Part shown: piece by piece, positions 4,165 through 26,425 of the stretch
Position numbering within the stretch: the first letter of the stretch is position 1
Layout of the letters: each line of letters opens with the position of its first letter
NCBI GenBank assembly: GCA_949751835.1
Contig: CATKHK010000096.1
Coordinates: 1-64,000 of the forward strand
Direction: 5' to 3'
DNA: 64,000 nucleotides
From: Blepharisma japonicum
Taxonomy: Eukaryota > Ciliophora > Heterotrichea > Heterotrichida > Blepharismidae
Program-made: the position numbers and the translations under genes
The notes under the pieces: generated by a model
What the model was told of the DNA's origin: nothing
Seen by the model: only the letters and a program-made list of their open reading frames with translations
Databases searched by the model: none

Positions 4165-7100
4165 TTAATAAAACGTATTAGCTTCTATCCACCCTTTTTT
4201 CCCAGTACCTTTATTTTTAGCCATTTCTATTCTCATCAAGAATTTTCTGCACTCATCATAGCATACAAGTAAAATAAATGCAGGAACAGCAGGAAAGCCA
4301 TAATGCAAAGTTACCAAAGGTCTACCTCCTAGTGCACTATTTAGTCCAGGCACATAGCAAATTAACAATGTAAACAAAGTTTCAAAGCAAAGCGCAAAGT
4401 TCACAAACCAATTTGTGAATCCTCTATCAATGATACTTTTTTCTCTTGTTCTGACAATCATTATGTTTGCATATTGGCAACAAACAACTCCTACAAAGTA
4501 GCCACATTGGGCGTACTTAAAAGCTTCTGTAGTATAGCAGATTTCATGATTGGATATTGGTGATGTCCACCCAGGATATCTGCAATCAGACCAATTATCC
4601 TTTCCATAATTATGGAACCAAATTCTTAAGTCAAGATGTGCATCACCATTTGTGATAAAATCAACAGCCTGATTTTCATAATTTGAGTCTCCCATGTGAG
4701 AATTTCCTTTTGAATTGAGATCAGGGTCATAGACATCATCCTTGCCGGGCTTATACCCAGACTGTGCTACATAAAAAAACCACAAAACTTGTGGTTTGAA
4801 TCCGAAATCATAAAAAATTGTGAAATAAGCTAGCATTCCACCCATAGTGATTATTTCGCCTGTTTGCATGTAAGCGAAAAATAGAAGCTGATAAGACATT
4901 AAATGGTCTTTTTCGGCGTCTCTTGGTTTTCTTTTCATAATATCAAGTTCGGACTCTTCATAAGCAAGCCCAACAGCTGGAATAACATCAGTTCCTACAC
5001 TAATTGCAAGCATTAAAACAGTTGATAAAGGTAAAGGTAGCTGGAATATAACTGTTATTAAGTAAGGTATGATCTCTGCCATGTTTGATGCTAAAACATA
5101 TGCGATAGTTCTTTTAAGATTATCAAAAATGACTCGGCCTTGCTCTACACCTTGAATAATAGATGCGAAATTGTCATCGATCAATAGCATATCTGCAGCG
5201 TCTTTAGCTGCATCACTTCCTACAATTCCCATAGCAATTCCAATGTCTGCTTTTTTAATGGCTGGGCTATCATTTACACCATCACCAGTAACAGCAACGA
5301 TTTGTTTAAGCTGTTGATTGGCATCAACAATCATATATTTTTGAGCAGGGGAAGTTCTTGCAAACACGATCTCTTTTTTTCTTAACCACTTAGCAATTCT
5401 TTGCTCTCGAAATGGAAGATCAGAATCTTCTGTGTGAGCTTTTGTGAGCATATCTCCGTGGATCACAATAGCGTCACTTAAGTCCATAGCTTTTTCCCAA
5501 TCCAAGCCTTCTTCAACATAGTCATTTACAGTCTTGTCTACAGTGATAATTTGCACTTGTCTTGCAATTGCTGCAGCTGTAAGAGGCTGATCTCCAGTGA
5601 CCATAATAACTTTGACTCCTGCCTCATGTGCTGAAATGACAGCTTCTTTCACTCCTTTTCTAGGTGGATCCATTAGAGCTGTTAAACCAATAAAAGTGAG
5701 GCCTCGAAGAGGAAAATTTGGTCCTTCTTTTTTATTTGGTTCAAAAACATAATCTTTAGGATATTCATTGTTATCAAGTCACGTATAAGCAAATCCTAAA
5801 ACTCGCTGACCTTTACCTCCAAAGCATTTATTTGCAGCTGCAAACTGAATTTTTTTCTCTTCAGTTATAGGAACAGCATTTCCTTCTGATAGTATAGTTG
5901 AGCATCTCTCCCACAGCTGCTCAGGGGCTCCTTTCATAAATAGTATGCAATCTTTCTTGTGGTCTTCAGGATTCCAATCAGTTGGTTCGTGAATTGTTAC
6001 TGCATATTTATTAGCTGAAGTAAATGGGATTTCACCTTTAATGCCTTCTCTTACAAGAATAGGGTATGTCTGCCTCATGTCTGTAATGTTTTTTATAGGA
6101 TGAAAGAATTTAATTAAAGCAATTTCTGATGCATCACCTCCAAATGTTGGCCAAGTTTGTATGGATTTGGTTGCTAAGCTTGTTTTAAATTTTTCTTTTA
6201 CTTCTGCAATTTCATTTTCAGAAAGCCTATTTCCATGCTTATCTGATAAAAGGTCTTCGGGTGGCTCAGTTGAAAATTGGGCTTTGCTATTTAAAATAGA
6301 ACATCTAAGAAGCATTTCAAAGGTTGGCTCTTCAATATTATAGCCTAAAGATACTCCAGTGTTTTTTTCTTCATAATTATTGACATCTCTAATTTTACTG
6401 TCATACCAAATACTAACAACTCTCATTTTGTTTTCGGTTAAAGTCCCAGTCTTGTCTGAACAAACACATGTAACAGATCCTAAAGTTTCGACACATTCTA
6501 AGTTTTTTACAAGGACATTTTTTTCAGCCATTCTTTTTGCAGTAAGAGCAAGAGCAACTGTGACTTCTCCAAGTAGTCCTTCGGGAACATTAGCAATAAT
6601 GCATCCAATAGCATTAATTACATTTACCGTAATAGTGAACCCAAAGCTAAAGCCTAAAGCGAAGAAAATGATACCCATAGTCACTGATATAATAGTGATT
6701 ACCTTTACAAAAAAATCAATTTCTCTTCCCAATGTGGTTTGTTCATTCTTAGTAGTGAATGCTAAGTTTGCAATTCTTCCCATTACAGTCTTGTCACCAG
6801 TGTTAATCACCACACCTTTTGCTTCCCCAGTGCTGCACATAGTCCCAAAAAATGCCATATTTTCAGTTTCAAGTGGATTTTTTTCGTTAGTACATTTCTC
6901 AGTTCTTGGAAGAGGATCACTTTCTCCAGTTAAGGATGAGTTATCAACCTTCATATTATTAGATGATAAAATCCTGATGTCTGCTGGTATTTTTCTGCCT
7001 TCCTTGACAAACACAATGTCTCCTGGAACAAGTTTTGATGACTCCATTTCTCTTGCATTTCCATCTCTGATGACTGAGCATTTAGGTGGTATCATGTTCT

Positions 7101-7653
7101 TAAAACCCGCCATGATGGCTGCTGACTTTTCTTCTTGATAAAAGCTAAATGTACCTGTGATTACTACGACTACAACAATCGCAATAGCAAGGTAAACATT
7201 GGATGGATCAGTTTGATCAATACCATATGTGATGAAACATAAAATGGCCCCAGCCCATAACATCAAGGAGAAAAAGCCAGTTAGACACTTAATAAAATGC
7301 AAGTATCATGGGAGTCCAGCCTTCTCAGTCAATTTGTTTTCTCCAAAAACTTTAAGTTTGTTATGTGCTTTTTCATCTGATAAGCCACGATCGAAATCTG
7401 TTTCTAAATTTCTTGCTAAATCATCTAATGAGATTTTGTGCTCAATCATGTCCCTAAAAGCTTCCGAGCTCTTAATAGCATCATCTTGCTTATCTCTTCC
7501 TTTCGGCTTCGGTACAGACTTTTTTGTGGCTCCATGTTTTTTGCTTTCCTCTTCTGCTAGTCTTTCGGCATGCTCTTTTATCTCAATTTGATCTTTAATT
7601 TGTTGAAAACCGATAATGAATGAAGAGCTTGTTCTTCTAATAGATTCTAACAT
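4165..7653 (-). CDS. P2C-type (Na,K-ATPase-like) cation pump alpha subunit, copy A
   Basis: ATG at 7653 to TAA at 4165, 1162 residues with two TGA-Trp codons (one in LPWYLHF). All P-type landmarks are present: TGES in the A domain (about residue 243), PEGLL in TM4, the phosphorylated Asp in CSDKTGTLT (about 400), KGAPE in the nucleotide domain, VTGD, DPPR and TGDGVNDSPA (about 790). The TM5 motif is SNMAE instead of the usual SNIPE. TM6 reads ISVGTDVIP, so the Asp equivalent to Na,K-ATPase D804 is Ser while D808 remains. The C-terminus ends NTFY, similar to the KETYY end of animal pumps. The family exchanges cations across the plasma membrane by an ATP-driven E1/E2 cycle; the ion pair moved here cannot be read from sequence. 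Close paralogue of 13184-16669. No beta subunit gene in the window. Confidence 0.95.
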
Positions 7654-9617: not shown

Positions 9618-9735
9618 TAAATATTGTGATTGTAAGCATTTTAAAAATAATGTAAAATAATTTTTAGCAATAGATTTATTTATGCTATTTAAATATTAAA
9701 TTATGTCTTCAATTATATAATATAGCCTACTTTAA

Positions 9736-10854: not shown

Positions 10855-10920
10855 CAGTAAATAGCTTCTCCTATACTATTTATATTATTTGTGAGTATAA
10901 TGGATTTAATTTAATACATT

Positions 10921-11425
10921 CAATCGCAAATGCGAATAAGTGCGTTTATAGACAAGCTTAAGAAAATCTGGAATTCAACTTTGAAATTAATTTGGAAACC
11001 TAAACATAAGTGCCTTTCAATTTCAAAGTCGACTTTAATATTTATATTTTGATATAGAATTAAAACTAAAACTAATGACTTCTTCCATGAGCGTAAACTT
11101 GCTCACTTTAATTTAATTCTTAACAAAAAATAAACTTTATCTTTAAAGACATTAGATGTAGATACTAAACTAATGCAAAAGATATAATTTCAAAATAAAT
11201 GAATTGCAAATTTTATGCATTTTGAATGAAATCAAAAATTTTGTGATTTTTAGCCTAATGAGCAAATTTTATAAAATATTTTATTAAAAATTTAGTTAAA
11301 TCAACTTACGATGAGTCAACACATGAAAAGATCAAATTAACTGTATTGATGCAGTTTGATTATATTGCTTTTTAACCTATAAGTTTTATCTGAAATTTTG
11401 GAAAATTTGATTTAAAAACAGCCTT
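10921..11425. repeat. Non-coding direct repeat, copy 1
   Basis: Begins CAATCGCAAATGCG, continues with GTGCGTTTATAGACAAGCTT, then TTCAACTTTG, GGAAACCTAA, GACTTTAATATTTATATTTT, later CAACTTACGA and TTGATTATATTGCTTTTT. The same landmarks recur in the same order about 820 bp downstream. Copies differ by many substitutions and small indels, so the duplication is not recent. Both copies are full of stops. It could be a duplicated regulatory block or an unrecognised RNA gene. Confidence 0.8.
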
Positions 11426-11742
11426 AAAGCCTTAATAAATAATTCATAGGAAATAGAAGAACAAAATATTGGTCTTTTCAAGTATGCCACTATAATGGAA
11501 AATAGCTGCAATGAAATCTGTGCTTATAAATTAACGCTGGTCAAAATTCTATATGTTTATGAAGGAATTTTAAATAAGCTTTACACTATTAAATCACTAA
11601 CGACTCTTATATAGAATTATAAAAATTTATTCTAGCCAAAGTATATACTGGGAGAAATAATATCCTGTGCATGAATTAAGTTTCAATTCATAATTTTTAT
11701 TGGAGAATAAATCAATCGTGAAAGTGCCATCAGTTATACATA

Positions 11743-12265
11743 CAATCGCAATTTTAATGTGTGCGTTTATAGGCAAGCTTAAAAAATCTATAATTCAACT
11801 TTGAGATTAATTCGGAAACCTAAGCATCAGTGCATTTTAATCAAAGTTGACTTTAATATTTATATTTTTGCTATAGAATTAAACTAAAATTAATAATTTT
11901 TTCAATGAGTATAAACTTGTTCATTTTAATTTAATTCTTAAGCAAAATTAACACAAAAAATCAGCTTTATCATTAAAGACATAAGGTTAAAAATTCAAAA
12001 AAATCCAAAAGATATATTTTCAAAATAATGAATTGAATTTTGAATTAAATAAAAAATCTTGTGTTTCTTAGCCTATTGAACTATCCTTTTAAAAATATTT
12101 TATTGAAATTATTTAAAACAACTTACGACGATTCGCTTCACAATTTCAATAGATTAAAAATACATGAAAATATCAGACTAACTGTATTGATTTGAACTTT
12201 GATTATATTGCTTTTTTACCTATAGTTTTACCTGAAAATTTTACAAAATCCTTTGAAAAAAAGCA
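11743..12265. repeat. Non-coding direct repeat, copy 2
   Basis: Second copy: CAATCGCAATTTTAATG, GTGCGTTTATAGGCAAGCTT, TTCAACTTTG, GGAAACCTAA, GACTTTAATATTTATATTTT, CAACTTACGA and TTGATTATATTGCTTTTT in the same order as copy 1. The segment between the two copies (11426-11742) shows no similarity to either. Confidence 0.8.
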
Positions 12266-12386
12266 TGAGAAATAAATCAATTTGTTTTCAAGCGACTTTC
12301 TTTGCGTTTTATTGTTTTAAATTCTTCTTAATCTTTCCAATATATATATACTCAAAATGTTCATTTTTGTAAATTTCACTAATTTC

Positions 12387-12405
12387 CGTTCCATTTTTAC
12401 TGGAA
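12387..12405 (+). promoter_or_regulatory. Shared ATPase upstream motif, distal copy (B)
   Basis: CGTTCCATTTTTACTGGAA, about 780 bp before the start of ATPase copy B, one base shorter than its counterpart at 8070-8089. Flanks also match loosely (TTTCC before; ATTTTTT, then ATAAA after). Confidence 0.5.
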
Positions 12406-13117
12406 TTTTTTATAAAGACTTTTAATCCAGATGAAACACACAATTTAGAAGGTTGGATACGCAAAACTCCAAGTAGATTGATAATTTCATTTCATATAGC
12501 AAGATCTTCAGCAATACTAAAAAGTTAGGAATAAGAATATTGTATATAATGAACACTCTGCAAAAATTGATTTTTCACTTTATTCACAAATCATGATCAA
12601 TGAATAAATGCATTTTTGATTAAAAATCCAAATTATCTATAAACGAATTTTACAAATGTTCTGGTTCCTGATTATAAATAAAATTGGAATACCTTATAAC
12701 AAATCTTCATCTCTGCATGCATTTTAATCAATTATACTTGATCAAAATTCTCAACATCCTGCTTTCTTATCATTTTTTGGAATATTGCTCAATCTATAGG
12801 GTGTTTAAAAAATAACTAAAATTATAACAACAATATAAATCTAATTAAGCAGATTTTACTAAAATTTAATATTAACTATCAAAATATTCGACTTATTCGC
12901 CCTATTCTTAGTTAATTTTTCTTTAATTTTTGTTTAGTTGATTTTCTGATAATAAAAATAAAAAATCTTTGTATAAGCATTTTCCATTGAATTGGAGTAG
13001 AATAATCTTGGTTTCTTCTTAAAAAGTTGAATCTTGGAAATAAACTAAATTTGAATTTGGATTCTGACAAAATATTGAAAAATCTTATAACTTAATTGCC
13101 ATTTTTTCAAAATTTAC

Positions 13118-13137
13118 AGTTCATTTTTTCACTGGAA
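13118..13137 (+). promoter_or_regulatory. Shared ATPase upstream motif, proximal copy (B)
   Basis: AGTTCATTTTTTCACTGGAA, 46 bp before the start codon of ATPase copy B, preceded by GCCATTTTTTC as in copy A. The similar distance to the start in both genes suggests a core-promoter or leader role. Confidence 0.5.
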
Positions 13138-13183
13138 GCTTGCAAACACTTTGGTAAAAGACTTAATTAAATGTTATAATAAT

Positions 13184-16100
13184 ATGTCACAACCTCTTAG
13201 AAGAACCAGCTCCTCATTTATCATCGGGTTTCAGCAACTCAAGGACCAAATTGAGATAAGAGAACATGCTGAAAGAATAGCTGATGAAGAGAACCTTAAA
13301 AAAGGCATTACGAAGAAACCCAAAGAGACTAAAGGAAAAGATAAGCAAGATGACGCAATTAAAAATACTGAAGCTTTTCGTGATATGGTTGAGCACAAAA
13401 TACCCCTAGAAGAGCTTGCAAGGAACCTAGAAACAGATTTAGATCGTGGTCTACCAGAAGAAATAGCTCGTAATAAGCTCAAAGTTTTTGGTGAAAATAA
13501 GCTAACAGAAAAAGTTGGAATGCCATGGTATATACACTTTATAAAGTGTTTAACTGGATTTTTCTCACTTCTCTTATGGGCTGGAGCAATTTTGTGTTTT
13601 ATCACTTATGGTATTTCTCAATCTGATCCATCAAACTTATATCTAGCTATTGCACTTGTTGTTGTGGTCCTTGTTACAGGCTGTTTTGGCTTTTATCAAG
13701 AATCCAAGTCAGCAGCAATTATGGCTGGTTTCAAAAATATGATTCCTCCTAAATGCTTAGCTATAAGAGATGGCAGTCAAAGAGAAATGGAGTCACAGAA
13801 ACTTGTCCCAGGAGATATAGTATTTGTAAAGCAAGGCAACAAAGTTCCAGCAGATATCAGAATTTTGACTTCTAATAATATGAAAGTTGACAACTCTTCT
13901 TTAACCGGTGAGAGTGAACCTTTAGCAAGAACTGATAAATGCACTAATGAAAAAAATCCACTTGAGACTGACAACTTAGCATTTTTTGGAACAATGTGCA
14001 GTTCAGGAGAAGGTAAAGGAGTAGTAGTTAACACTGGCGATAAAACTGTCATGGGAAGAATTGCCAAGCTAGCCTTTTCAACAGAAACTGAACAAACAAC
14101 TCTGGGAAGAGAAATTGAATTCTTCGTGAAAGTAATAAGCGTTATATCACTTTCTATGGGAGTCATTTTCTTTGCCTTAGGATTCAGCTTTGGATATGAT
14201 ATAGTTACAAATGTAATCAATGCAATTGGTGTAATCGTTGCAAACGTCCCTGAAGGACTTTTAGCAGAAGTTACCGTAGCTCTTTCTCTCACAGCAAAAA
14301 GAATGTCAGAAAAAAATGTCCTTGTGAAAAATCTTGAATGTGTTGAAACTTTAGGCTCAGTCACATGCGTCTGTTCGGATAAAACTGGAACTTTGACTGA
14401 AAACAAAATGAGAGTTGTCAGCATTTGGTACGATAGTAAAATTAGAGATGTGAATAACTATGAAGATAAAAACACTGGAGTTGCTTTAGGCTATAACATT
14501 GAAGATCCAACTTTTGAAATGATGCTGAGATGCGCAATTCTGAATAGCAAAGCTCAATTTTCAACTGAACCTCCAGAGGAAGTTTTGAATGATAAAAAAG
14601 GAAATCCATTACCTCAAAACGAAATTGAAGCAGCTAAAGAAAAGTACAGAGCTGAGCTTGCTCAAAAATCAATTCAAGTCTGGCCAACATTTGGAGGAGA
14701 TGCATCAGAAATCGCACTTATTAAATTTTTCCACCCTATACAGAATATTGTAGAAACGAGAAAAACATATCCTGTTCTGGTAAGAGATGGCGTAAAAGGT
14801 GAAATCCCATTCAATTCAGCTAATAAATATGCAGTAACACTCCACGAGCCATGTGATTGGAATCCTGAGGACCACAAGAAAGATTGTATATTATTTATGA
14901 AAGGAGCTCCTGAGCAACTATGGGAGAGGTGCTCAACTATTCTTTCAAATGGAAATATTGCTCCTATAACTGAAGATGTGAAAAGCCAATTTGCAGCAGC
15001 AAACAAGCATTTTGGAAGCAGAGGTCAAAGAGTTTTAGGATTTGCTTATATGTGGCTTGACCATAATGAGTATCCTAAAGATTATGTTTTTGATCCAAAT
15101 AAAAAAGAGGGACCGAATTTTCCTCTTCGTGGGCTCACTTTTATTGGTTTAACAGCTCTAATGGATCCACCTAGAAAAGGTGTAAAAGAAGCAGTTATTT
15201 CAGCCCATGAAGCTGGAGTCAAAGTAATTATGGTCACTGGAGATCAGCCTCTTACAGCTGCAGCTATTGCAAGACAAGTACATATAATTACACAAGCCAA
15301 GACTGTAAATGACTATGTTGAAGAAGGAATGGATTGGGAAAAAGCTATGGAATTAAGCGATGCTATTGTGATACACGGAGATATGCTCACAAAAGCCCAC
15401 GCAGAAGATGCCGAACTTCCTTTCAATGAGCAAAGAATTGCAAAGTGGTTGAGTAAAAAAGAAATTGTATTTGCAAGAACTTCTCCAGCTCAAAAATATT
15501 TAATTGTTGATGCCAATCAGAAACTCAAACAAATTGTCGCCGTCACTGGTGATGGTGTTAATGATAGCCCAGCCATTAAAAAGGCTGACATTGGAATTGC
15601 TATGGGAATTGTAGGAAGCGATGCTGCAAAAGATGCTGCAGATATGCTGCTTATTGATGATAACTTTGCGTCTATTATTCAAGGAATTGAACAGGGCCGT
15701 GTCATTTTTGATAACCTTAAAAGAACCATTGCATACGTTTTAGCCTCAAATATCCCTGAAATTATCCCGTTTTTGGCAGCAGTTATTTTCCAAATACCTT
15801 TACCTTTGACAACCATTTTGATGCTTTGTGTTTGTATTGGAACAGATGTTATTCCAGCTGTTGCTCTTGCTTATGAAGAACCTGAGCTTGATATTATGAA
15901 GAGGAAGCCAAGAAACGCTGAAACTGACCATTTAATGTCATTCCAGCTCCTTTTCTTTGCATATATGCAAACAGGAGAAATACTAACATTAGGAGGAATG
16001 ATGGAATATTTAGTAATTCTCTATGACTTTGGATTCAAGCCACAAGTTTTGTGGTTCTTTTATATTGCAGACTCAGGCTGTAAACCTGATGAGCATGATA

Positions 16101-16669
16101 TTTATGATCCAGATATCCCATCAAAAGGAAACTCTCACATAGGAGATAGTAGTTATTGTGGAGACACTGTTAATTATCTAACAAATAGTGACGGAAAATA
16201 TGATTTGAGAGTTTGGTATCATAATTACGGCCATGATAGCTGGTCTGATTGCAAGTATCCAGGATGGACATCCCCTATAACTAACCATGAAATTTGCTAC
16301 ACTAGTGAAGCTGTACATTATGCACAGTGTGGATGGTTTGTAGGGCTTGTTTGTGGCCAATACGCAAATTTACAAATAGTCAGGACAAGAGAAAAAAGTA
16401 TAATTGATAGAGGATTTTCAAACTGGGTGCTTAACTTTTCGCTTGCTTTTGAAACTTTGTTCACATTGCTAATTTGTTATGTCCCTGGGCTAAATGAAGC
16501 ATTGGGAGGAAGACCTTTGTTGACTTTGCATTTTGGATTCCCTGCAGCTCCTGCATTTATTGTTCTTGTAGCATATGATGAAATTCGAAAATATTTACTA
16601 AGAAAAGAAATGAAGAGAAACAAAGGGAAGGGGGTAAAGGGATGGATAGAAGCCAATACGTTTTATTAA
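13184..16669 (+). CDS. P2C-type (Na,K-ATPase-like) cation pump alpha subunit, copy B
   Basis: I start at the ATG at 13184 (MSQPLRRTSSSF) because it matches the start of copy A; an upstream in-frame start at 13151 would add 11 unrelated residues. 1161 residues to TAA. No TGA-Trp is needed in this copy. Motifs: TGES, VPEGLL in TM4, CSDKTGTLT, KGAPE, VTGDQP, DPPR, TGDGVNDSPA, SNIPE in TM5, end NTFY. TM6 reads VCIGTDVIP, so the residue equivalent to Na,K-ATPase D804 is Cys, whereas D808 is kept. The extracellular TM7-TM8 loop is long and Cys-rich, with conserved SKGNSH and LRVWYHNYG segments shared with copy A. A plasma-membrane cation pump; the ions are not predictable. The paralogue pair is divergently placed 5.5 kb apart with other genes between. 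Confidence 0.95.
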   Translation: MSQPLRRTSSSFIIGFQQLKDQIEIREHAERIADEENLKKGITKKPKETKGKDKQDDAIKNTEAFRDMVEHKIPLEELARNLETDLDRGLPEEIARNKLKVFGENKLTEKVGMPWYIHFIKCLTGFFSLLLWAGAILCFITYGISQSDPSNLYLAIALVVVVLVTGCFGFYQESKSAAIMAGFKNMIPPKCLAIRDGSQREMESQKLVPGDIVFVKQGNKVPADIRILTSNNMKVDNSSLTGESEPLARTDKCTNEKNPLETDNLAFFGTMCSSGEGKGVVVNTGDKTVMGRIAKLAFSTETEQTTLGREIEFFVKVISVISLSMGVIFFALGFSFGYDIVTNVINAIGVIVANVPEGLLAEVTVALSLTAKRMSEKNVLVKNLECVETLGSVTCVCSDKTGTLTENKMRVVSIWYDSKIRDVNNYEDKNTGVALGYNIEDPTFEMMLRCAILNSKAQFSTEPPEEVLNDKKGNPLPQNEIEAAKEKYRAELAQKSIQVWPTFGGDASEIALIKFFHPIQNIVETRKTYPVLVRDGVKGEIPFNSANKYAVTLHEPCDWNPEDHKKDCILFMKGAPEQLWERCSTILSNGNIAPITEDVKSQFAAANKHFGSRGQRVLGFAYMWLDHNEYPKDYVFDPNKKEGPNFPLRGLTFIGLTALMDPPRKGVKEAVISAHEAGVKVIMVTGDQPLTAAAIARQVHIITQAKTVNDYVEEGMDWEKAMELSDAIVIHGDMLTKAHAEDAELPFNEQRIAKWLSKKEIVFARTSPAQKYLIVDANQKLKQIVAVTGDGVNDSPAIKKADIGIAMGIVGSDAAKDAADMLLIDDNFASIIQGIEQGRVIFDNLKRTIAYVLASNIPEIIPFLAAVIFQIPLPLTTILMLCVCIGTDVIPAVALAYEEPELDIMKRKPRNAETDHLMSFQLLFFAYMQTGEILTLGGMMEYLVILYDFGFKPQVLWFFYIADSGCKPDEHDIYDPDIPSKGNSHIGDSSYCGDTVNYLTNSDGKYDLRVWYHNYGHDSWSDCKYPGWTSPITNHEICYTSEAVHYAQCGWFVGLVCGQYANLQIVRTREKSIIDRGFSNWVLNFSLAFETLFTLLICYVPGLNEALGGRPLLTLHFGFPAAPAFIVLVAYDEIRKYLLRKEMKRNKGKGVKGWIEANTFY

Positions 16670-17261
16670 TTTAAGAAAATTATATATCAATGCTAGAGTT
16701 TAAATAAAATAATGTTGATAGTATTATTAGTGGTTTTCTTGAGATTGCAAGTCTATCTTAATTTCAGGAAATATAATTAAATGGTGGTCATGCTAAACTG
16801 GCATCTTGGAGTCTAAACTTAGATATAACGAATTGGGAAGGATTTCAATCAAAAAAATTTGCTGCTTCCCACAGTTGAAGTGAAGACACCTTAATAACTT
16901 ATGAATAATGACCATTTATTACAGAAGAAGTCAGTTATCATCTTGGTGTTTTTTCCTGCTATCTAGAGAGACATCTGGAACCTCAGATCTTGTGAAGCTA
17001 ATTTATAAAATCTAGCTACTCAAACATTTAATTAGGTGCAGAAACCATAAAGCTATCCACTCAAAGCTGAAGAATTTCAGAAAGCTTGAGAGCTAAAACA
17101 TCCTTTTCTAATTTTTTTTTGCATCACAAGGGGGTAAACCTTCTGCTGGAAAATCCTACGATTTTATAATAAGTCTTGCAAAATGCCTGCTTTATTTAAT
17201 TCTTATCTTAATCTTAATTTTAGAAATAAAATATATAAATATTTTGGGGATTATAAAGAAT
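16670..17261. other. Intergenic, no intact gene seen
   Basis: About 0.6 kb after ATPase copy B. It is less AT-rich than typical spacers here, and short frames such as GKDFNQKNLLLPTVEVKTP are soon stopped, so it may hold an old decayed gene, but I could not recognise one. No repeat or RNA gene seen. Confidence 0.4.
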
Positions 17262-17483
17262 ATGGAACGCGAATCCGAACTAAGTAGTTTAACTGAAGAG
17301 GAGAAGGAAAAATTGAATTTTTTCAAATCATTAAAGCCACGGATGAATGAAATAAATCTCCCCGAAACTTATCAGCATGTTAACTTAGAAATTTTGGATA
17401 GAATAATTGAAGAAGGAGAATATATAATAAGCAAATTAGATGAGCAGATTATTGAAAATCGTTTAAATAAAATGTCTTTATAA
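17262..17483 (+). CDS. Small acidic helical protein, unknown
   Basis: ATG at 17262 to TAA at 17483, 73 residues. Starts MERESELSSLTEEEKEK and contains NLEILDRIIEEGEYIISKLD, a pattern typical of an amphipathic helix or short coiled coil. I recognise no family. Its stop codon directly abuts the stop codon of the convergent gene at 17484 with no base between, so the two 3' ends must overlap in transcripts. Codon use looks ordinary. Whether it is expressed cannot be told from sequence; a chance frame of this length is possible in AT-rich DNA but its helical charge pattern argues for a real gene. Confidence 0.5.
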   Translation: MERESELSSLTEEEKEKLNFFKSLKPRMNEINLPETYQHVNLEILDRIIEEGEYIISKLDEQIIENRLNKMSL

Positions 17484-19007
17484 TTATACTTTTACCTTTT
17501 GTAAAAACACTTTAGGCCAGTTTCTTTTATCTATTTTATATAAGTCATTTACTTTTTCATTTACACTTAAGCATCGACTTTTTCCTTCTTTTTCTTTAAA
17601 TTTTAATGCATATTCATCTTTATTTATCTTCATAGTTTCGCACAATAAATTTAAAATATCTTCAATCTTAGCTTCGGAGAAATATTTCACATAGTAAAAA
17701 TTAGAATAAGAGGGATAGCCTTGTGGAATGTAAATTTTTAGCCTGTTTAAGCTAGGATTTAATTTGAAATGGTCAGAGTCTTCAGTAAAAAGTGTAGAAA
17801 TTGATATTAGAGATTCAGATTCTTCAAATGTTGGCAAAAAATCAGAGTTTGATCTTGAGGTCGCTTCAGTTGCAAGCTCAACGCTTGGCTTTCTGGAAAT
17901 ATGGATACTTTTGTCTGCTATCGATTTTTCAATTTTACTTATCCTTTGCGCCATTTCTAAGTTCTTTTTGGCCAGCTCCTCATAATTTCTGTCTTTTTTG
18001 GATTTATCAGTTGATTGTCCCCTTCTTCTTGATGAGCATCTATGTGACCCACAAGGTAAATTTAAATTTTTCTTTTCATCTTTAATTGGAATTTCATCAC
18101 TCATTAGCTCTTTATGTGAATATTCTGTTTTTAAAGTCAAAACATCGCTTGTTTTGCTTATTTCAGACAAATTTATATCGTTTAACAATTTATTTTCTTT
18201 AGGCAATTCTACACCCCTTGGCTGAATATGCAAGTCATATGTGGGAGTTTCTAAATGTGTCCATTCAGGTGATAAATCACATTCTGGTGCCCAAACTTTC
18301 AAGGTTTCTTCACTTTCTCTATAAATTTTATCGAAATGGTCCATAAATCTTTGTTTTGGCTCAGCCCGCAATTTTAATTCTAACGTTGAAATGGTATTTT
18401 TTATTTGACATAAAACACATTCCAATTCTTGGTCTTTTATTTTAATTTTCAGCTCTTTTTCTTTATGGTTGATACAAAGTTGGTTAAATGACAAATCATA
18501 TTGCTCGTCAATTTGGGCGACATATGCATTTCTTTTACTCTGCAGCTCAGCAACGCCAAGTTTTAAACTATTTTGAAGCTGCTCTTTAATGGAATTTATA
18601 TAGAGTTTGATTCCCATATGACGGTCTCTTACTAAATATAATTGTTCCAGTTGAGATTTTATAGAGTCTACTTTTCGGTTGTAGGTAGAATTTGATTCCT
18701 CATCAAAAGAGTCGCAAACTTGAGCTTGTTTGGAAAGGATTAAGGGAGAAGGTGAAAGACGAGCATAAGAAATTGGAGAACTTGCTCTAGTTCCATCGTC
18801 AACTTTAAAGTTTTGTGGGATATTGAAAGGCTTTGGGAGGTAGTTATTCTTTTCATGATTGTGAATAACATTTGCGGAAATTTCTTTAAGTGGAAATGGG
18901 CAAGGCTCTGAAATATCTTTATCAAAATGAGTTGTTATGAGCTTCCTTGGAGGAAAAGGCTCTTCTGAATCCCAAGGTATTTTTCCTTCTCGACCTAAAG
19001 TATACAT
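17484..19007 (-). CDS. Coiled-coil protein with C-terminal RA/ubiquitin-like fold candidate
   Basis: ATG at 19007 to TAA at 17484, 507 residues, no TGA codons in frame. The first ~100 residues are Pro- and Ser-rich and look disordered. Residues ~110-240 form coiled coil. A basic CSSRRRGQSTDKSKK segment follows and then a short coiled coil. The last ~85 residues (LKIYIPQG, then IEDILNLLCETMKINKDEYAL, ending WPKVFLQKVKV) have the strand-helix-strand order of a Ras-association or other beta-grasp domain; this is a fold guess, not a family match. It might link a small GTPase to a scaffold. Divergent from the ATPase fragment at 19195, 187 bp apart. Confidence 0.7.
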   Translation of the reverse strand: MYTLGREGKIPWDSEEPFPPRKLITTHFDKDISEPCPFPLKEISANVIHNHEKNNYLPKPFNIPQNFKVDDGTRASSPISYARLSPSPLILSKQAQVCDSFDEESNSTYNRKVDSIKSQLEQLYLVRDRHMGIKLYINSIKEQLQNSLKLGVAELQSKRNAYVAQIDEQYDLSFNQLCINHKEKELKIKIKDQELECVLCQIKNTISTLELKLRAEPKQRFMDHFDKIYRESEETLKVWAPECDLSPEWTHLETPTYDLHIQPRGVELPKENKLLNDINLSEISKTSDVLTLKTEYSHKELMSDEIPIKDEKKNLNLPCGSHRCSSRRRGQSTDKSKKDRNYEELAKKNLEMAQRISKIEKSIADKSIHISRKPSVELATEATSRSNSDFLPTFEESESLISISTLFTEDSDHFKLNPSLNRLKIYIPQGYPSYSNFYYVKYFSEAKIEDILNLLCETMKINKDEYALKFKEKEGKSRCLSVNEKVNDLYKIDKRNWPKVFLQKVKV

Positions 19008-19194
19008 TTGAATTATGAAAATTTAAAAATGTTCGAATTAAATAATTTTTGCAGTTAATTTAATGCTCTACCGCCAATTAATTAATTCAATATTCAGTCG
19101 TTATCGGCCCCTAATTTATAAAATAATTTTATTATAAAGATTTTGCAATTAATTTAATGCTTTCTTATTAAACCTTCCAAAATCATTGTTTTTA

Positions 19195-19914
19195 ATGTCT
19201 GAAGAAGGATATTCTCCTGTCTGTGAAGATATTATAAACCAAAGCTGGCATAAAATGACACCTGAAGAGCTCTCAAAAAACCTTGAGAGCGACTTAAATG
19301 AAGGTCTAACCCAAGAGACAGCACAAAAAAAGCTAAAAGTTACTGGCACAAATTGCTTATATGAAGACGAATCTGCTTTGTATAAAATTTTAAAGCATTT
19401 GTTTTCTCGTATCACAGTTCCTCTATATATAATAGCTTTCTTATTCTACCTTGCTTATAGGGAAGGGCTAATCAACTCTTTTGTATATCGCACATTACCA
19501 TTAATTGCATTTGTTATTTCAGTCATCACTATAATAAAGAGCGAAAACGCAGCAAAAGAGATAAAGTTAGTCGAGAACCAAATACCCCAAAAATGCACAG
19601 TCATAAGAGAAAAAAAGGAAATGACAATTTCAAGATATGAAATAGTTCCAGGAGACATAGTTAAAGTGAAGATAGGAGAAACTGTTCCAGCAGATATCAG
19701 AATTTTATACGCGAATGACTGTAAAATCAATATTCAATGCTTAACAGATACTGAAACAATTTTAGATAGATCAGAAAAGTGTACAAGTCAAGAATTTCTT
19801 CAATCACAAAATATTGCATATTTTGGATCAGTTTGTGCTCAAGGGGAATGCAAAGGAGTTGCTATTAGCACAGGACAAAAAACTTTATTATCAAGACTAG
19901 TACACTCTAAATAA
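19195..19914 (+). CDS. Truncated P2C ATPase-like protein: N-terminus, TM1-2 and A domain only
   Basis: ATG at 19195 to TAA at 19914, 239 residues. It aligns with the start of the pumps: MTPEELSKNLESDLNEGLTQ matches the N-terminal cation-ATPase segment, two hydrophobic stretches follow, then IPQKCTVIREKKE, VPGDIVKVKIGETVPADIRI and the A-domain end GECKGVAISTGQKTLLSRLV. The TGES loop, which removes the phosphate in working pumps, reads LTDTE here, so even the A domain is not catalytic. The frame ends where TM3 should begin, and the next 340 bp do not look like ATPase. Either a decayed 5' piece of a duplicated pump or a retained short protein; the open frame of 239 codons with family-like conservation suggests the frame has been kept. 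Fast-evolving compared with copies A and B. Confidence 0.6.
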   Translation: MSEEGYSPVCEDIINQSWHKMTPEELSKNLESDLNEGLTQETAQKKLKVTGTNCLYEDESALYKILKHLFSRITVPLYIIAFLFYLAYREGLINSFVYRTLPLIAFVISVITIIKSENAAKEIKLVENQIPQKCTVIREKKEMTISRYEIVPGDIVKVKIGETVPADIRILYANDCKINIQCLTDTETILDRSEKCTSQEFLQSQNIAYFGSVCAQGECKGVAISTGQKTLLSRLVHSK

Positions 19915-20253
19915 GTTTATGAAGAGAATTAATATAATTTGTGAATAAAATAGTTTTTATAATTAGTTGGGATTATATTAAAGGAACTCAAAATCAAAAC
20001 ACTGCAAAATTATTCAGATATCCAAGTTTAAAATTCCTTCTTGGGTTTTGGAGCAGTACAAGCAAAAATGCTTATTATAGTAATTTATATTGAAATATTC
20101 TATTGGTATAAATTATATGAGTTCTATATAATTTTTTTTAATTCTGCTCTATTGGAGTATTCCTACACGATGAGAAGCAGGTAAGAGTGAATTTTGCATA
20201 GCTATCAATAGAATGATCAAAATAATTAGTTCAATAATCAGGAGTTATAAACA
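19915..20253. other. Intergenic, no gene seen
   Basis: AT-rich 340 bp between the ATPase fragment and the diverged ATPase. I looked for TM3 and the phosphorylation site that should follow the fragment and found neither. Probably the promoter of the downstream gene. Confidence 0.5.
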
Positions 20254-23200
20254 ATGTCAAAAATTGATGCTAATTATGAGCAATCTGATGAGGGAATTTC
20301 AGGATTTGGTCCTGTAAAGTGGCATTTATTACCTCCAAATGAAATAGAATCTCGCTTAGAAACTGATCTCATTAATGGCTTAACAGACGGAAGAGCTGAG
20401 CTTGCGCGAAAAATTTACGGAGAAAATTCTATCGAGATTTCCAAGCCTCCAAAATTATGAAAAAAGTTTTTTGGTCACTTGAGAACTTTTCCTTGTCTGC
20501 TCTTATTTACATTTTCAATATGATGCTTTATATTTCACATTATAGACAAAAATGACTCCATTGATCTCTATCTTGGAACGGTAACTTTGTGTGCCTTAAT
20601 AGTATGGAGTTTCCATAGATCCTATATTGAAATCAAAGATTATCAAAATCATTTGGCACTTCAAGATCTACTTTTACCAAAATGTAATATTATAAGAGAA
20701 GGCATAATAAAATCAATAGACTCTGTTTACTTAGTCCCAGGAGATATTGTGCTTATTCGCACAGGAGAGAAAATACCTGCGGATATAAGAATATTAGAGG
20801 CAAATAATTTGAAAATTGATGAATCTGCTTTAACTGGAGAAAACATGCCTGTTGCTAAAACTAGCAACGCCTCAGAGATAGATTCTATGATTGAGGCTAA
20901 AAATATAGCATATGCGCAAACTTACTGTGTTGAAGGGAGCGGAAAAGGTGTGGTTGTTGAAACAGGAATAAATACAATGATAGGCAAGATTGCTATTTTG
21001 GTAGCTGATCCATCTCCCTCTGCTACTGGGGACATTTCTTATAAAAATACCCATAAATGACTACTTATTATACTTGCTTTTCCAATAGTTTTCAGATTAT
21101 TAGGAATTTTATTAGGATTCAGGTTTAATTTTACAATGCTTGGCTTCATTTTGGCAGTTGATTTAACAATCATTGGCATTATTCCTCACAAGTCTATAGA
21201 GGAAATAACAACTTATTTTACATCAAATATACTCATTAAGAAAAATATATTAGCAAAATATCTTGAAAGAATAAGAATTTTTGGTGAAAATCCTATTATT
21301 ATAATGGATAAAACTGGAGTAATTACAGAAAATAGGCTGTGTCTTGTTCAGCTTTGGGATAATTGCGAATTTAAAAGCGCAGAAGATATAAAAAAAGATG
21401 AGACTTCCAGTAAGAATTTATCATTTAATATGGCAATGATCTCAGCAATTCTTATTAATGATGCAAAATTTGACCTTGATTTTAAAGTAGCTGGCCAAAA
21501 TCTTTACGAAAGTCAATATAAAAAAATTAAAGCTAAATTTTCAGACGAAATAATTTCAAAGCCAATAGCTGAATGGCCTGCTAAAGGTTCCTCATCAGAT
21601 ATTGCCATAATAAAATTTTTCCAATCGCTAGTGGATATTGAGAATTTTAGAGACACTCACAATCCAATAAGAATAGAAGGAAACGAATTAAAAATACCTT
21701 TCAGGGCTTCCTACAAATATGCATCTGCAGTTTATAATGGACACGAATTCGGATTTGAGGATGCTTCCCAAAAGTATATTGCATTCTATAAAGGTGCTGT
21801 TGAAGTTTTATTAGAAATGTCGTCCAAGATTGTATGTGAAGATTCTGAGCTAAAAAATAGCGAAGAATTAAAGGAAAATATAATTAAAGCTTACAAAGAA
21901 TGTAACAAAAAAGGGTTAAGAGTTGTTGCGTGCGCTTATAAATGGCTAAAGGAATCTGATATCCCTGAAGATTTTCAACCTGATCCTCAAAGCGTGCCAG
22001 AATTTTTGAAGGGAAATTTAGTTTTTGCAGGATTTATTGTATTAAAAGATCCTCCCAGGAAAAATGTTAAAGAATCTATATTAGCTCTAAAGAATCTTCA
22101 CATGAAGTGTATTATTGCTACAGGTGATATGCTTCCTGTTGCAACAGAAATTGCAAAGCAAACGTGCATTATCAGTAACCCCAAAACAACAAGTGATTTT
22201 GAAGAAGAAAATATAAACTTCTATGAGTCTCTTGAGTTAACCGATTCTGCGATTGTTAATGGAAATTTAATAAATGAATTTTATAATAATATAGCCAATG
22301 ATGAAGATGGAAAAGAAAAACTATATAAGATATTAAGCAAAAAAGAAATTGTGTTTGGAAGACTATCACCAGCACAGAAGCTTTTTATTATAGAAAAATA
22401 TCAAGAGATGGGAAATAAAGTAATTTTCATAGGAGATGAAATGAATGATGTACCTGGGATGAAGAGATCTGATGTAAGCATTGCAATGAGAAAAACTGCT
22501 TGCTCAACAGTATTGGATAATTGTGATATAATTTTATTAGATGATGATTTTATCTCAGTTTCTGAAGGGTTTAAGATTTTCGAAGCTGTTTTTGATAATC
22601 TTAAAAAATCAGCTCAGAGTATATTAGCATCAAACATACCAGAACTCATTCCCTTCTTTATTTTCATTGCTTTACAGCTGCCATCAGCGTTTACAGTTGT
22701 ACTGATATTTTTGATTGATTTAGGAATAGATATTACTCCATCAATTGCGATGAGCTCTAATTTTACTCTTGATATTAATAATCGCAAGCCAAAAGATTTA
22801 ATTGAAACACAATTGAAATATAGCAAATCTCGATTTTTTTCTATTATACAGCCAGGATTACGAGAAGCTTTAGCAGGATTTATGGCTTATTTTATCGTCT
22901 TGGAAAATTTTGGCTTCAGCTTACAAACCGTATGGCTCATGAATAACTCTAAATCAGGAACAGTTCCAGGAATAAATGACATATATGATCCAAATATTCA
23001 GAGTAAAGGAAATAGTCACTATGGAATAGTAGAATATGAAAATATTCTATTCGATTATACATCCAAAAATTATGATTCCTATGATTTAAGAGTTTGGTTC
23101 CATGGATTATCTCCAGAGACATGATCGTCTTGCTATTTCCCTGAACTCTATTCTCCATTTACCGATGAGATGATTTGCTACTCTGGAGAGGCTTTATATT

Positions 23201-23517
23201 ATGCACAATATGCATGGTTCGTTTCAATTATAATTGCAAAATTATTGAACTTTTTGATACCTAATGCTACTAAGCTCCCGCATCACTATCATAGATTAAG
23301 CAAAAAAGTGGCTTTTTGGAGCATTTTACTTGGTGTAATGCTCTCTTTATCCTTATGTTATGTTCCGATTACAAGTGAACTTCTATCTGGAAGGCCACTT
23401 CCTCTATTGCAGTTTGGTTTTCCAGCTCTTCCTTCATTTTTGCTTTTGCTTCAAGTTGATGATATAAGAGCATTGGTCATGTCTAAGAGTCAGATAGACA
23501 TATTTAGTCTTTATTAA
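20254..23517 (+). CDS. Strongly diverged full-length P2C ATPase-like protein
   Basis: ATG at 20254 to TAA at 23517, 1087 residues in one frame once four TGA codons are read as Trp. Order and length of domains match copies A and B, including SKGNSH and LRVWFHG in the TM7-8 loop and the C-terminal GRPLPLLQFGFPALP. Landmarks are altered: TGES is TGEN (194-197); the TM4 PEGL that holds a cation-binding Glu is PHKS (311-314); the phosphorylation motif is DKTGV with Asp352 kept; KGAPE is KGAVE; GDGVND is GDEMND (727-732). TM5 SNIPE is intact and TM6 has IDLGID (821-826), i.e. both Asp residues that copies A and B only half keep. Phosphorylation might still occur, but transport as in normal pumps is doubtful. 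Perhaps a regulator or a pump with changed ion choice. Absence of stops over 3.2 kb argues against a pseudogene. Confidence 0.88.
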
Positions 23518-23564
23518 TAAATAAATATATATTATTAGCTTGTTGATGATATAATAAAAAAAAT

Positions 23565-24626
23565 ATGGAAAGGTTAAAGATCTTGAAAAGACATTTAAGT
23601 CCTAATATATCAATTGAAGATTTTCCATACACCCGCATTTTAACTCTTAATAGGCCAGAGAGTTTAAACTCATTAGACTATGAAATGCTTTCAACATTAT
23701 CTTATCTGGCTGACCAAACCCCTAATAAAAATCTTGTAGTTCAAGGTTGCAATTCAAATTGATTTTCATCAGGAGAAGATAATAAGGCTATTGTTGAAGG
23801 CCATGCAAATGTCACAGAATTTTATAGGACTGAACTTTCTACTATTTATCAAATCTATAAACATCCAGCTGAAACCCTTGCAATTTTACGAGGGTTTTCT
23901 ACGGGTGCAGGAAATGGTATAGCGATGGCTTGCAAATATAGAATAAGCACAGAAACTACACGATTTTCAATGCCCGAAAATTCAATTGGCAAAGTCCCTT
24001 GTGCAGGCGCTTCTTATTTTCTTACACATTTGTATAATAAGCCTTTAGGATTATTTCTAATGCTATCGGGAAAAGAATTAGATGGAAATGATTTATTTTG
24101 GGGTGGAATTTCTACACACTATATCCCAGAATCGCAAATCCCTAGCCTTCTTAATGATTTAAAGTCATCGAATAGTCTTATTGAGGTATTAGACAAATAT
24201 AATCAATTTCCACCGAGAGAGCAGTCAAATCTTATAAGGCATTTATATGAAATAGAGCAAGTTTTTGGAGAAGTTAACACAGTTGAAGAAGTTTTGATGA
24301 AGCTATGTGCTAAACCTACACCTTTTAAGGAAATGGTGCTTCTTAATATCTGTAAAAGCTGCCCACTTTCAGTGAAAGTTGCATTCAAATCATTTAAGCT
24401 TGGATTGAATATGACTTATAAAGAAGCATTGGAGCATGATTATAATATAGAAGTGCAGCTTTGCTATAGGAGAAGCTATAATTATAAGACAGCTATTACT
24501 AAGAAGCAAATGGAAAAGGGAGAAAATGAGATAAAATGATACCCCGACCACATCAATCAAGTCACTGACAAAATGGTTGATATCATCATAAGAAACCCTG
24601 AAGGCCCTTTTCTAAAACTACAATAA
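23565..24626 (+). CDS. 3-hydroxyisobutyryl-CoA hydrolase-like protein (crotonase fold)
   Basis: ATG at 23565 to TAA at 24626, 353 residues with two TGA-Trp codons; relatives are 350-385. Crotonase landmarks: TLNRPESLNSLDYEM, FSSGEDNKAI (usually F-C-A-G-G-D), RGFSTGAGNGIAM (oxyanion loop), FSMPENSIG, GKELDGNDLFWGGISTHYIP and, in the C-terminal part, SPLS-like CPLSVKVAFKSF, which is typical of HIBCH rather than enoyl-CoA hydratase. HIBCH frees 3-hydroxyisobutyrate from its CoA ester in valine breakdown in mitochondria. The catalytic Glu is kept (Glu138), but the catalytic Asp eight residues on, in the usual F-P-D-V-G, is Cys146 in VPCAG. Activity may be lost or changed. No clear mitochondrial presequence. 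It starts 47 bp after the diverged ATPase on the same strand. Confidence 0.85.
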
Positions 24627-24763
24627 ATTAATATAAACTACTAAATATCCATAAAAGATGAATAAAACATATTTTCTTACAAAACAATCAAAAGACTTTA
24701 ATCCATCTTAATTCAATGTATATGGGGTGAAAGAGTTTTAAATCTAAATAAAAATTAATTCCT

Positions 24764-25042
24764 CTACGATCTTGTCATTGTTTGAATAATTTCTTTGTTC
24801 TCTGGAGTTACTGCAGGGCGTACAAAATGATTGTCACATCGTGGACAGTACTCATCAGATTCATCGAAATCTTCAGCGCTCTTTCGAAATACTTTGCGGC
24901 ATTTTTTGCAGCCAAACACAAGTTCAGTTGTTTTGACTAAAGGATGATCAGCTGCTTCAGAGTGACATTCTGGACAGTCAAACCATTGCTTGCAGCATGG
25001 AGCTCTCACTTGTACTTGGGCATTCAGTATATGTTTGCACAT
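24764..25042 (-). CDS. Small CHY-type zinc finger protein
   Basis: ATG at 25042 to stop at 24764, 92 residues. Begins MCKHILNAQVQVRAPCCKQWFDCPECH: the C-x-H start, the paired CC and the CxxCH are characteristic of the CHY zinc finger. Two more CxxC pairs follow (FGCKKC and YCPRCD), giving three zinc sites in under 80 residues. In yeast, a small protein of this type (Hot13) helps oxidise Tim13-family proteins in the mitochondrial intermembrane space; larger members (RCHY1) are ubiquitin ligases, but no RING is present here. Last gene of a three-gene same-strand run, only 30 bp after the stop of the coiled-coil gene. Confidence 0.8.
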   Translation of the reverse strand: MCKHILNAQVQVRAPCCKQWFDCPECHSEAADHPLVKTTELVFGCKKCRKVFRKSAEDFDESDEYCPRCDNHFVRPAVTPENKEIIQTMTRS

Positions 25043-25072
25043 TTATATATTTATTAGATTAAGACAGTTTTA

Positions 25073-26425
25073 TTATTTTTTAAGAGTATGCTCAAAATTG
25101 GGATGAGGCTTTCGGAAGCAAACGTCACAGCGGTCTTTTAAATTTTTTGATGATGGGGTGCTTGGATTATTTCTAAGATTTTTTGGAGTGGAATAGTGAC
25201 TTCCACCGAACTCTTTTCGAGGCTCTTGAGCAAGATCAGAGACATCAATCTTTAATGAATCAGCGGAGTTATCGTTAAAAAATTTCCTCTCGCTTCGGCT
25301 GACAATAATCGTTTTGTGTTTTGGAGGCTTTTCTCCTGAACTTAGTTTACTTTCAATCTTATTTACAATATCTGCGTTATGGGCTATCTGATCTTGGATG
25401 ATTCTTTTAAGGTCTCGCTTTTCTTTAAAAATTTGAATTGATCTCTCTTTATTGCTTTTATTGACTGCATTTTCAATAAGTTGGTTATTTGCTTTTAAGT
25501 TTTCCTCTAAGCTTATACATCTTTTTTGCAGTATTAGGTTGTCTTCTCTTACAGGATCATTAAACTTCGTTTCCCCCAATAAAATTTTATTTTGAAATTT
25601 TATTTCTTCTAACTCTTTATTCAATTTTTTAAAGTATTTTTGATACTCTAGCTGAAGATTTTTAATATAATCTTTGGCTTCTATTAGCTCATTTTGATAA
25701 TTTTCAAAATCATTTGGTGAGCTTCCTTTACTTTTTAATTCGTCCAATAATTGTAGAGCTTGAAACTTTTGTTCCCTTTCTTGCTCAAGCGTTTTATTTA
25801 ATTTCATAAGTTCTTGTGAATGCTTTTTTCTTTCTTTTTCTAAAATTTTATAAATTTCATGTATTTGAAGATCATTTGAAGTATTTGATGATTGTAGCCT
25901 AGCTTCTAGCTCAGCTATTGTGAAATCGCATTGTGATAAGTCTTTTTTCAGTGTATTTATAATTTCGTCTTTTTCTGATAAATTGATTTTAAATCTCTCA
26001 ACTTCTCCTCTATATATCTCTCTTTCTGCTAAAATTTCCCTATTTAGAATCTCTATTTCTTCTGTAAATTTTTCAATTTCCTCTGAATTTTTTAAATCTT
26101 TTTCTTTAATTTCTTGATATTTTAGTTCTATATCATGCCGCGCGCTTTCTTCTTGACGGAGCTTATCAGTCAAAGATTGGATTATTAATAGATTATCTCC
26201 ATCTGCTTTTGGGCTTTCACCTTTTGTACTTAGAACTTCTGGCTCAACTTCTAAATCATTTTCTGAAATTTGCAAAAATGACGAAGATTTTTCAGAGTAT
26301 CTCTGTTCTGGGACTATATCTGGACGTTTAAAGAGTTCTTTATGTGCCAGATGCTCTCTAATCCTTTGCTCAAGCAATTGCTTTTTTTCCTTATTTTTTT
26401 GAGTAATTTGATCCTTTGGTTTCAT
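25073..26425 (-). CDS. Coiled-coil protein, unknown (cytoskeletal or basal-body type)
   Basis: ATG at 26425 to TAA at 25073, 450 residues. A basic start (MKPKDQITQKNKEKK) leads into long heptad-rich coiled coil from about residue 70 to 350, rich in E, K, L and N. The end is Ser/Pro/Lys-rich, then DRCDVCFRKPHPNFEHTLKK, a short Cys/His tail. No family recognised; such proteins are common in ciliate basal bodies and cortex, which is only a general analogy. It begins 15 bp after the stop of the next coiled-coil gene upstream (26441) on the same strand. No GT-AG intron joins them and three stops in a row (TAATAATAA) separate them. Confidence 0.7.
   Translation of the reverse strand: MKPKDQITQKNKEKKQLLEQRIREHLAHKELFKRPDIVPEQRYSEKSSSFLQISENDLEVEPEVLSTKGESPKADGDNLLIIQSLTDKLRQEESARHDIELKYQEIKEKDLKNSEEIEKFTEEIEILNREILAEREIYRGEVERFKINLSEKDEIINTLKKDLSQCDFTIAELEARLQSSNTSNDLQIHEIYKILEKERKKHSQELMKLNKTLEQEREQKFQALQLLDELKSKGSSPNDFENYQNELIEAKDYIKNLQLEYQKYFKKLNKELEEIKFQNKILLGETKFNDPVREDNLILQKRCISLEENLKANNQLIENAVNKSNKERSIQIFKEKRDLKRIIQDQIAHNADIVNKIESKLSSGEKPPKHKTIIVSRSERKFFNDNSADSLKIDVSDLAQEPRKEFGGSHYSTPKNLRNNPSTPSSKNLKDRCDVCFRKPHPNFEHTLKK

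Follow-up and report, generated by a model that had tools for sequence, protein, structure and literature searches.

A fast-evolved, long-constrained relative of the P2C-type pumps with a remodelled cation pocket in Blepharisma japonicum

Na,K-ATPase alpha2KK (PDB 8k1l), presumably the brine-shrimp pump, has lysines in its cation pocket at N324 and N776 and keeps canonical PEGL, DKTGT and GDGVND motifs. In the sections available of PMC10812997, lysines in M4 and M5 of a brine-shrimp pump go with a reduced stoichiometry, in which the pump can cycle with 2 Na+ for every K+, and H,K-ATPases are described as having a Lys at the TM5 Ser (Ser777 in that source, equated in this analysis with pig S775) and an Arg near the M8 Asp of site III, where it is likely to be a tethered cation. 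Another described relative is C. elegans CATP-1, a P2C paralogue with a conserved D-K-S/T-G-T motif for which a pump-independent role has been proposed; the part of PMC11631496 that was available presents pump activity as relevant and the independent role as unsettled. Limited literature searches found no paper on Blepharisma P-type ATPases and none on catalytically inactive P-type ATPase pseudoenzymes.

The protein analysed here, P0001, is encoded in a 64,000-nucleotide stretch of Blepharisma japonicum DNA (the window). Its top PDB match was alpha2KK, by a slight margin (353.2 bits against 352.2), and both proteins have lysines in the cation pocket. Those of P0001 are at G328 and Q923 instead and, unlike alpha2KK, it has altered forms of all three motifs. 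With the H,K-ATPases it has in common a basic pocket side chain, perhaps a tethered cation (PMC10812997, sections available), but the TM5 Ser is retained. The D-K-S/T-G-T motif of CATP-1 is another point of difference. Judged from its residues, it is just about probable that P0001 is an ATP-driven P2C derivative that moves fewer or other cations and is not dead. The coordinates of its features and of the genes around it are collected in Table 1.

Table 1. Features of P0001 and of neighbouring genes in the window (substitutions such as E327H in pig Na,K-ATPase (NKA) numbering)
Feature	Position	Strand	Remarks
P0001, remodelled full-length P2C-type ATPase	20254..23517	+	1087 aa, TGA=W
TGEN, actuator motif	20833..20844	+	Glu196 retained
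Asp303 gained in TM4	21160..21162	+	Ile in seven paralogues
TM4 PHKS instead of PEGL	21184..21195	+	E327H, G328K
DKTGVI	21307..21324	+	phospho-Asp352 retained; Thr to Val, Leu to Ile
GDEMND	22432..22449	+	both Asp and Asn retained; Gly729 to Glu, Val730 to Met
TM5 SNIPE retained	22630..22644	+	S775, N776, E779
TM6 DLGID	22717..22731	+	D804 and D808 equivalents retained
Long TM7-TM8 extracellular loop	22933..23196	+	22/27 family-invariant positions retained
Lys996 in TM8 for site III Gln	23239..23241	+	Q923K
Gly1027 for TM9 Glu	23332..23334	+	E954G
Full P2C paralogue, canonical catalytic motifs	13184..16669	+	TM6 D804 to Cys; TM5 SNIPE
Full P2C paralogue, canonical catalytic motifs	4165..7653	-	TM6 D804 to Ser; TM5 SNMAE
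Conserved P2C mini-gene limited to N-terminus, TM1-2 and actuator domain	19195..19914	+	TGES to TDTE
Enoyl-CoA hydratase/isomerase family gene (Pfam ECH_2)	23565..24626	+	anchors C30 collinearity

The frame runs for 1087 codons without a stop when TGA is read as Trp, as it is at four codons; this code is consistent with Blepharisma. An open run of this length has a chance probability of about 8e-30 at this base composition, and 300 first-order Markov sequences gave runs of up to 188 codons. Five Pfam models scored above their curated cut-offs (N-terminal, actuator, nucleotide-binding, HAD PF00702 and C-terminal), and the original prediction of a 1087-codon frame with the whole pump architecture was borne out. 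The top NCBIfam model was TIGR01106 (IIC Na,H/K subfamily) at 422 bits, the second scoring 255. P0001 falls short of the curated TIGR01106 cut-off of 946.1 bits, which was counted against its being an altered pump; both full-length neighbours pass (980 and 999 bits). As it scores below the curated IIC cut-off and has neither site III nor the TM4 Glu, P0001 is filed as a P2C-derived variant and not as a Na,K-ATPase. As far as its retained residues allow a judgement, it would work like a P2C pump. The N-terminal extension and the C-terminal W(I/V)xxNT(Y/F)Y tail of its relatives are both missing.

Besides P0001, at least seven full-length and at least two shortened P2C proteins were found in the 45 Mb genome; the genome searches score the best candidates only and these counts are minimum figures. 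Identity between P0001 and the seven full-length proteins is 32.5-35.7%, compared with 61-84% within the seven, and the genome searches found no paralogue more than 36% identical to it. In the protein tree its branch measures 2.48 substitutions per site, compared with 0.08-0.34 for the other ciliate tips. The nearest relatives by residue sharing, C30b and C126, have in common with it the architecture, both TM6 Asp residues, D926N and T774A (the last found in five of the seven paralogues), and P0001 and the P2C proteins of the genome alike have the long TM7-TM8 ectodomain, in which a Cys and a GN(S/T)H stretch are conserved. They differ from it in the TM4 Glu, site III, the C-terminal tail and the letters of DKTGT and GDGVND. 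The common ectodomain, D926N (in all seven) and T774A indicate that P0001 arose from within or beside the ciliate P2C family and evolved fast. Three of five placements of P0001 in the P2C tree lay within 0.4 lnL units and the other two were 3.4 and 10 worse. Residue sharing leans towards C30b/C126 over the clade without D804 (12 positions against 5, with 23 fitting neither). A tree of the N-terminal part joined P0001 to the shortened pair (support 78/73), but as all of these are long branches this kinship was not relied on. A pattern search for orthologues gave no matches in viral contigs and, in a genome-contig collection, 10 stretches that fit the pattern and no confirmed relative; a ciliate gene is not expected in either.

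A codon model of eight sequences and 1083 sites gave an omega of 0.069 for the P0001 branch, as a branch average in which a very recent loss of constraint would not show, compared with 0.056 for the family; the two rates were alike (LRT 0.2). Fixing the branch omega at 1 was strongly disfavoured (LRT 122.7, p 1.6e-28), and four other tree placements of P0001 gave LRTs of 137-156 against omega = 1. This contrast alone is used, the branch dS of about 8 being saturated. Where P0001 and a full-length paralogue have the same residue, they also agree in the codon 41-51% of the time, against a saturation expectation of 43-47%, which indicates that amino acids were held while silent sites were mostly replaced. 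These results support the original prediction of selection on an intact, remodelled frame, and a dN/dS near 1, which together with a lack of orthologues elsewhere was named there as speaking against it, was not observed. P0001 is an old, long-constrained pump relative and not a young pseudogene. That it is a young pseudogene still open by chance has a vanishingly small probability, being ruled out by the codon models and the near-saturated synonymous sites: it would require a dS of 0.63, a divergence that should have introduced about 93 stops, and no point in its support was found.

Constraint through most of its history, followed by a function now fading in a frame still open, would fit the fast branch, the TM3-4 omega described below and the collinear C30 locus without a P0001 counterpart. 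The stop-free frame, however, leaves room for a neutral phase of no more than about 0.020 changes per site (95%), or about 51 replacements, compared with about 700 differences between P0001 and C30b. In TM4, moreover, two neighbouring codons must each have undergone two or more base changes, which is unlikely within so short a neutral phase. Recent decay is for these reasons judged very unlikely.

The four motif changes of the original prediction are all present (TGEN at residues 194-197, PHKS at 311-314, DKTGV at 352-356 and GDEMND at 727-732). The catalytic residues Asp352, TGD, Lys709 (motif III), Asp728, Asp732, the Asn and Glu196 are present and the ATP-site Phe/Lys/Lys/Arg are retained. 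The roles of active-site residues and most roles of Na,K-ATPase residues are used here as general background; those attributed to PMC5026471 are the exception. Letter for letter the DKTGT signature is absent, its phospho-Asp, Lys, Thr and Gly being retained in DKTGV. Neither the nucleophile nor the metal ligands, the loss of which would mark a pseudoenzyme, have been lost. TGEN as a sign of decay is ruled out, because six other pumps of the genome (L027, L031, L032, L033, L035 and L037), presumably PMCA-like, carry it with canonical DKTGT and GDGTND. HAD motifs I-IV can all be recognised in P0001 (DKTGV, T623, K709 and GDEMND), and the third residue of motif I is Thr, not Asp, in P0001; the 25 non-P2C and 7 P2C pumps of the alignment have Thr there too. 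The available parts of the sources give HAD motif I as DXDX(T/V) (PMC8475336, PMC8069645) and include GDXXXD in motif IV (PMC8475336). Since the fifth residue of motif I may be either Thr or Val in this consensus, and the three X of GDXXXD may be any residues, both DKTGV and GDEMND fall within it.

DKTGV and GDEMND were each unique among 36 distinct P-type motif contexts, P0001 included and one spurious row dropped, from 58 loci and the window. The survey pattern picks up only pumps that have a DKTG-like motif and would miss changes of other kinds; 99 genome matches to PF00122 were reported and, of 83 further ones listed, 20 were fetched and 63 left out. A superfamily core was defined without hand-picking by aligning 25 further P-type ATPases of the genome, the eight P2C proteins being excluded, and taking those positions at which at least 90% of the 25 and every one of the seven P2C paralogues agree. 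P0001 retains 37 of these 46 positions, compared with 200 of 477 conserved in the family only (Fisher p 5.8e-7; 200/465 and p 1.4e-6 with gap columns excluded). For polar residues alone the counts are 16/18 and 73/182. As slow sites are retained in any constrained relative, and many are structural Gly or Pro, this retention is no proof of activity. Several replacements were counted against an altered but working pump: T356V, where Thr is invariant in 32 of 32 other aligned P-type ATPases; G729E, G742S and A753V, each invariant in the 31 of 31 others reaching that far; and D443S, E446D and P504V beside the ATP site. Two of the four changed positions that are otherwise invariant fall in active-site motifs. 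The active site is altered and not stripped, and the retention of the core favours activity.

The seven paralogues have 523 invariant columns, of which P0001 retains 237, with 12 of the losses being gaps. Its best-retained region is the TM7-TM8 ectodomain, with 22 of 27 positions compared with 215 of 496 elsewhere (Fisher p 1e-4, the region having been picked from 13 after inspection). The replacement rate of P0001 relative to the family tree is also lowest in TM7 and the ectodomain (0.33), followed by TM8-10 (0.55), the N domain (0.69), TM5-6 (0.74), the A domain (0.86) and TM3-4 (1.37); the domain boundaries behind all regional counts and rates are approximate. The P domain is normally slow, and in it the P0001 branch alone has accumulated 1.9-2.1 times as many replacements as the entire family tree. 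Omega was 0.82 in TM3-4 (58 sites), indistinguishable from 1, and 0.30 in TM5-6 (65 sites, p 0.17 against 1). The P domain, TM3-4 and TM5-6 values were all counted against the preferred reading of an ATP-driven pump.

A well-kept ectodomain with TM3-4 and the P domain most changed would fit a protein that folds and reaches the membrane without useful ATP turnover. By way of its ectodomain and membrane part, such a protein would act on the P2C pumps next to it, whether as their scaffold, as a partner in trafficking or as a dominant regulator. The uniqueness of both its motifs in the survey is consistent with this, as is the maintenance of a derivative without catalytic domains, the actuator-only mini-gene, next to it. 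Pump-independent roles proposed for CATP-1 would offer a precedent, though they are disputed in the part of PMC11631496 that was available. A pure scaffold, however, would not need the charged catalytic residues and most of the superfamily-conserved residues that P0001 retains, and this explanation is possible but doubtful. Among the new roles listed in the original prediction, a pump with another ion is the best supported, and a pseudo-pump is not favoured because the catalytic residues are retained.

The TM7-TM8 loop of the eight full-length P2C proteins appears longer than that of animal Na,K-ATPase. The beta-subunit profile PF00287 gave no matches in the genome, yet control genomes gave none either, and this negative carries no weight.

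Pocket ligands were compared using Table 1 of PMC5026471. The site I side chains N776, E779, D804 and D808 are all present, in agreement with the earlier claim that TM5 SNIPE and both TM6 Asp residues (Asp822 and Asp826) are kept. At site II the TM4 Glu, E327, is replaced by His. In Na+ site III, Q923 has become Lys and D926 Asn, and E954 is Gly; Asn for D926 occurs in all eight full-length P2C proteins found in the genome. Y771S is a further change in P0001. By analogy with the basic residues of the brine-shrimp pump and the H,K-ATPases (PMC10812997, sections available), Lys313 and Lys996 may play the part of a built-in cation.

The neighbouring genes turned out not to be the two ordinary paralogues that had been described, as both lack the first TM6 Asp, which P0001 retains. 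At D804 these two genes and C30a carry Ser or Cys, and the omega of the family is 0.056. The P2C pumps noted with canonical catalytic motifs but no D804 number three, the two neighbours and one at L009 (2138-5629) with Cys for D804 and TM5 SNPPE. According to the available part of PMC5026471, D804N affects K+ binding more than Na+ binding, and by analogy the pumps without D804 may be Na+-biased.

The adjacent mini-gene has a second copy on contig C30 (271309-272028), in which TGES has become TDCE. Both encode 239 aa with the same end point, and the pair has an omega of 0.116 at a dS of 2.6 (LRT 93.9 against 1). The product is a protein of TM1-2 and actuator domain that is kept by selection. 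P0001 is not the remainder of this shortened gene, as TM1-2 and an actuator domain are present in P0001 itself, and tblastn found no further P2C piece between the two.

C96 (window about 8900-26400) and C30 262000-280000 are collinear paralogous segments. Identities are 89% for a kinase, 83% for the P2C pump, 57% for the shortened P2C, 75% for the enoyl-CoA hydratase family gene and 55% for a fifth gene without a Pfam match. No counterpart or remnant of P0001 was found on C30 262000-280000 above chance scores, and C30b has no clear counterpart in the window. The collinearity, together with local gene gain or loss, points to a segmental or wider duplication. Elsewhere, contig C35 has P-type ATPase pieces at 232832-233795, one with 5 TAG and 3 TAA internal stops; this is possibly a real pump pseudogene, in contrast to P0001.

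P0001 is a paralogue of the P2C (Na,K/H,K-type) pumps of ciliates that evolved fast and has been under purifying selection as a branch average. If it is an ATP-driven pump of fewer or other cations, ATP would phosphorylate Asp352 and Glu196 would assist dephosphorylation, both residues being present. The pocket has been rebuilt, with the site I side chains retained, His for Glu in site II and site III lost, and Lys996 (TM8) and Lys313 (TM4) could act as built-in cations in the manner suggested for the brine-shrimp pump and the H,K-ATPase Arg. The outcome would be a pump of lower stoichiometry or other selectivity, for H+ or a single cation, which the conserved TM7-TM8 ectodomain would hold at the surface where its relatives act or with the partner that they use. 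A more specific proposal, which we consider rather unlikely, is a selected P2C-derived ATPase that cycles with its changed DKTGT and GDGxND, with Lys313 and Lys996 as its own counter-ions and His312 for the TM4 Glu. Each cycle would move a single cation or proton, or ATP would serve only to switch the shape of the protein, which shares its locus with pumps without D804 and an actuator-only mini-P2C and might belong to a multi-part pump system.

To our knowledge, DKTGT and the TM4 Glu are regarded as all but inviolable in pumps of this kind. A natural variant that is under constraint although both are changed would be a test of what the pump cycle truly requires, and P0001 may also serve as a natural experiment in basic pocket residues setting stoichiometry. 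As the locus holds pumps without D804 and an actuator-only mini-gene as well, the parts could be compared within one genome.
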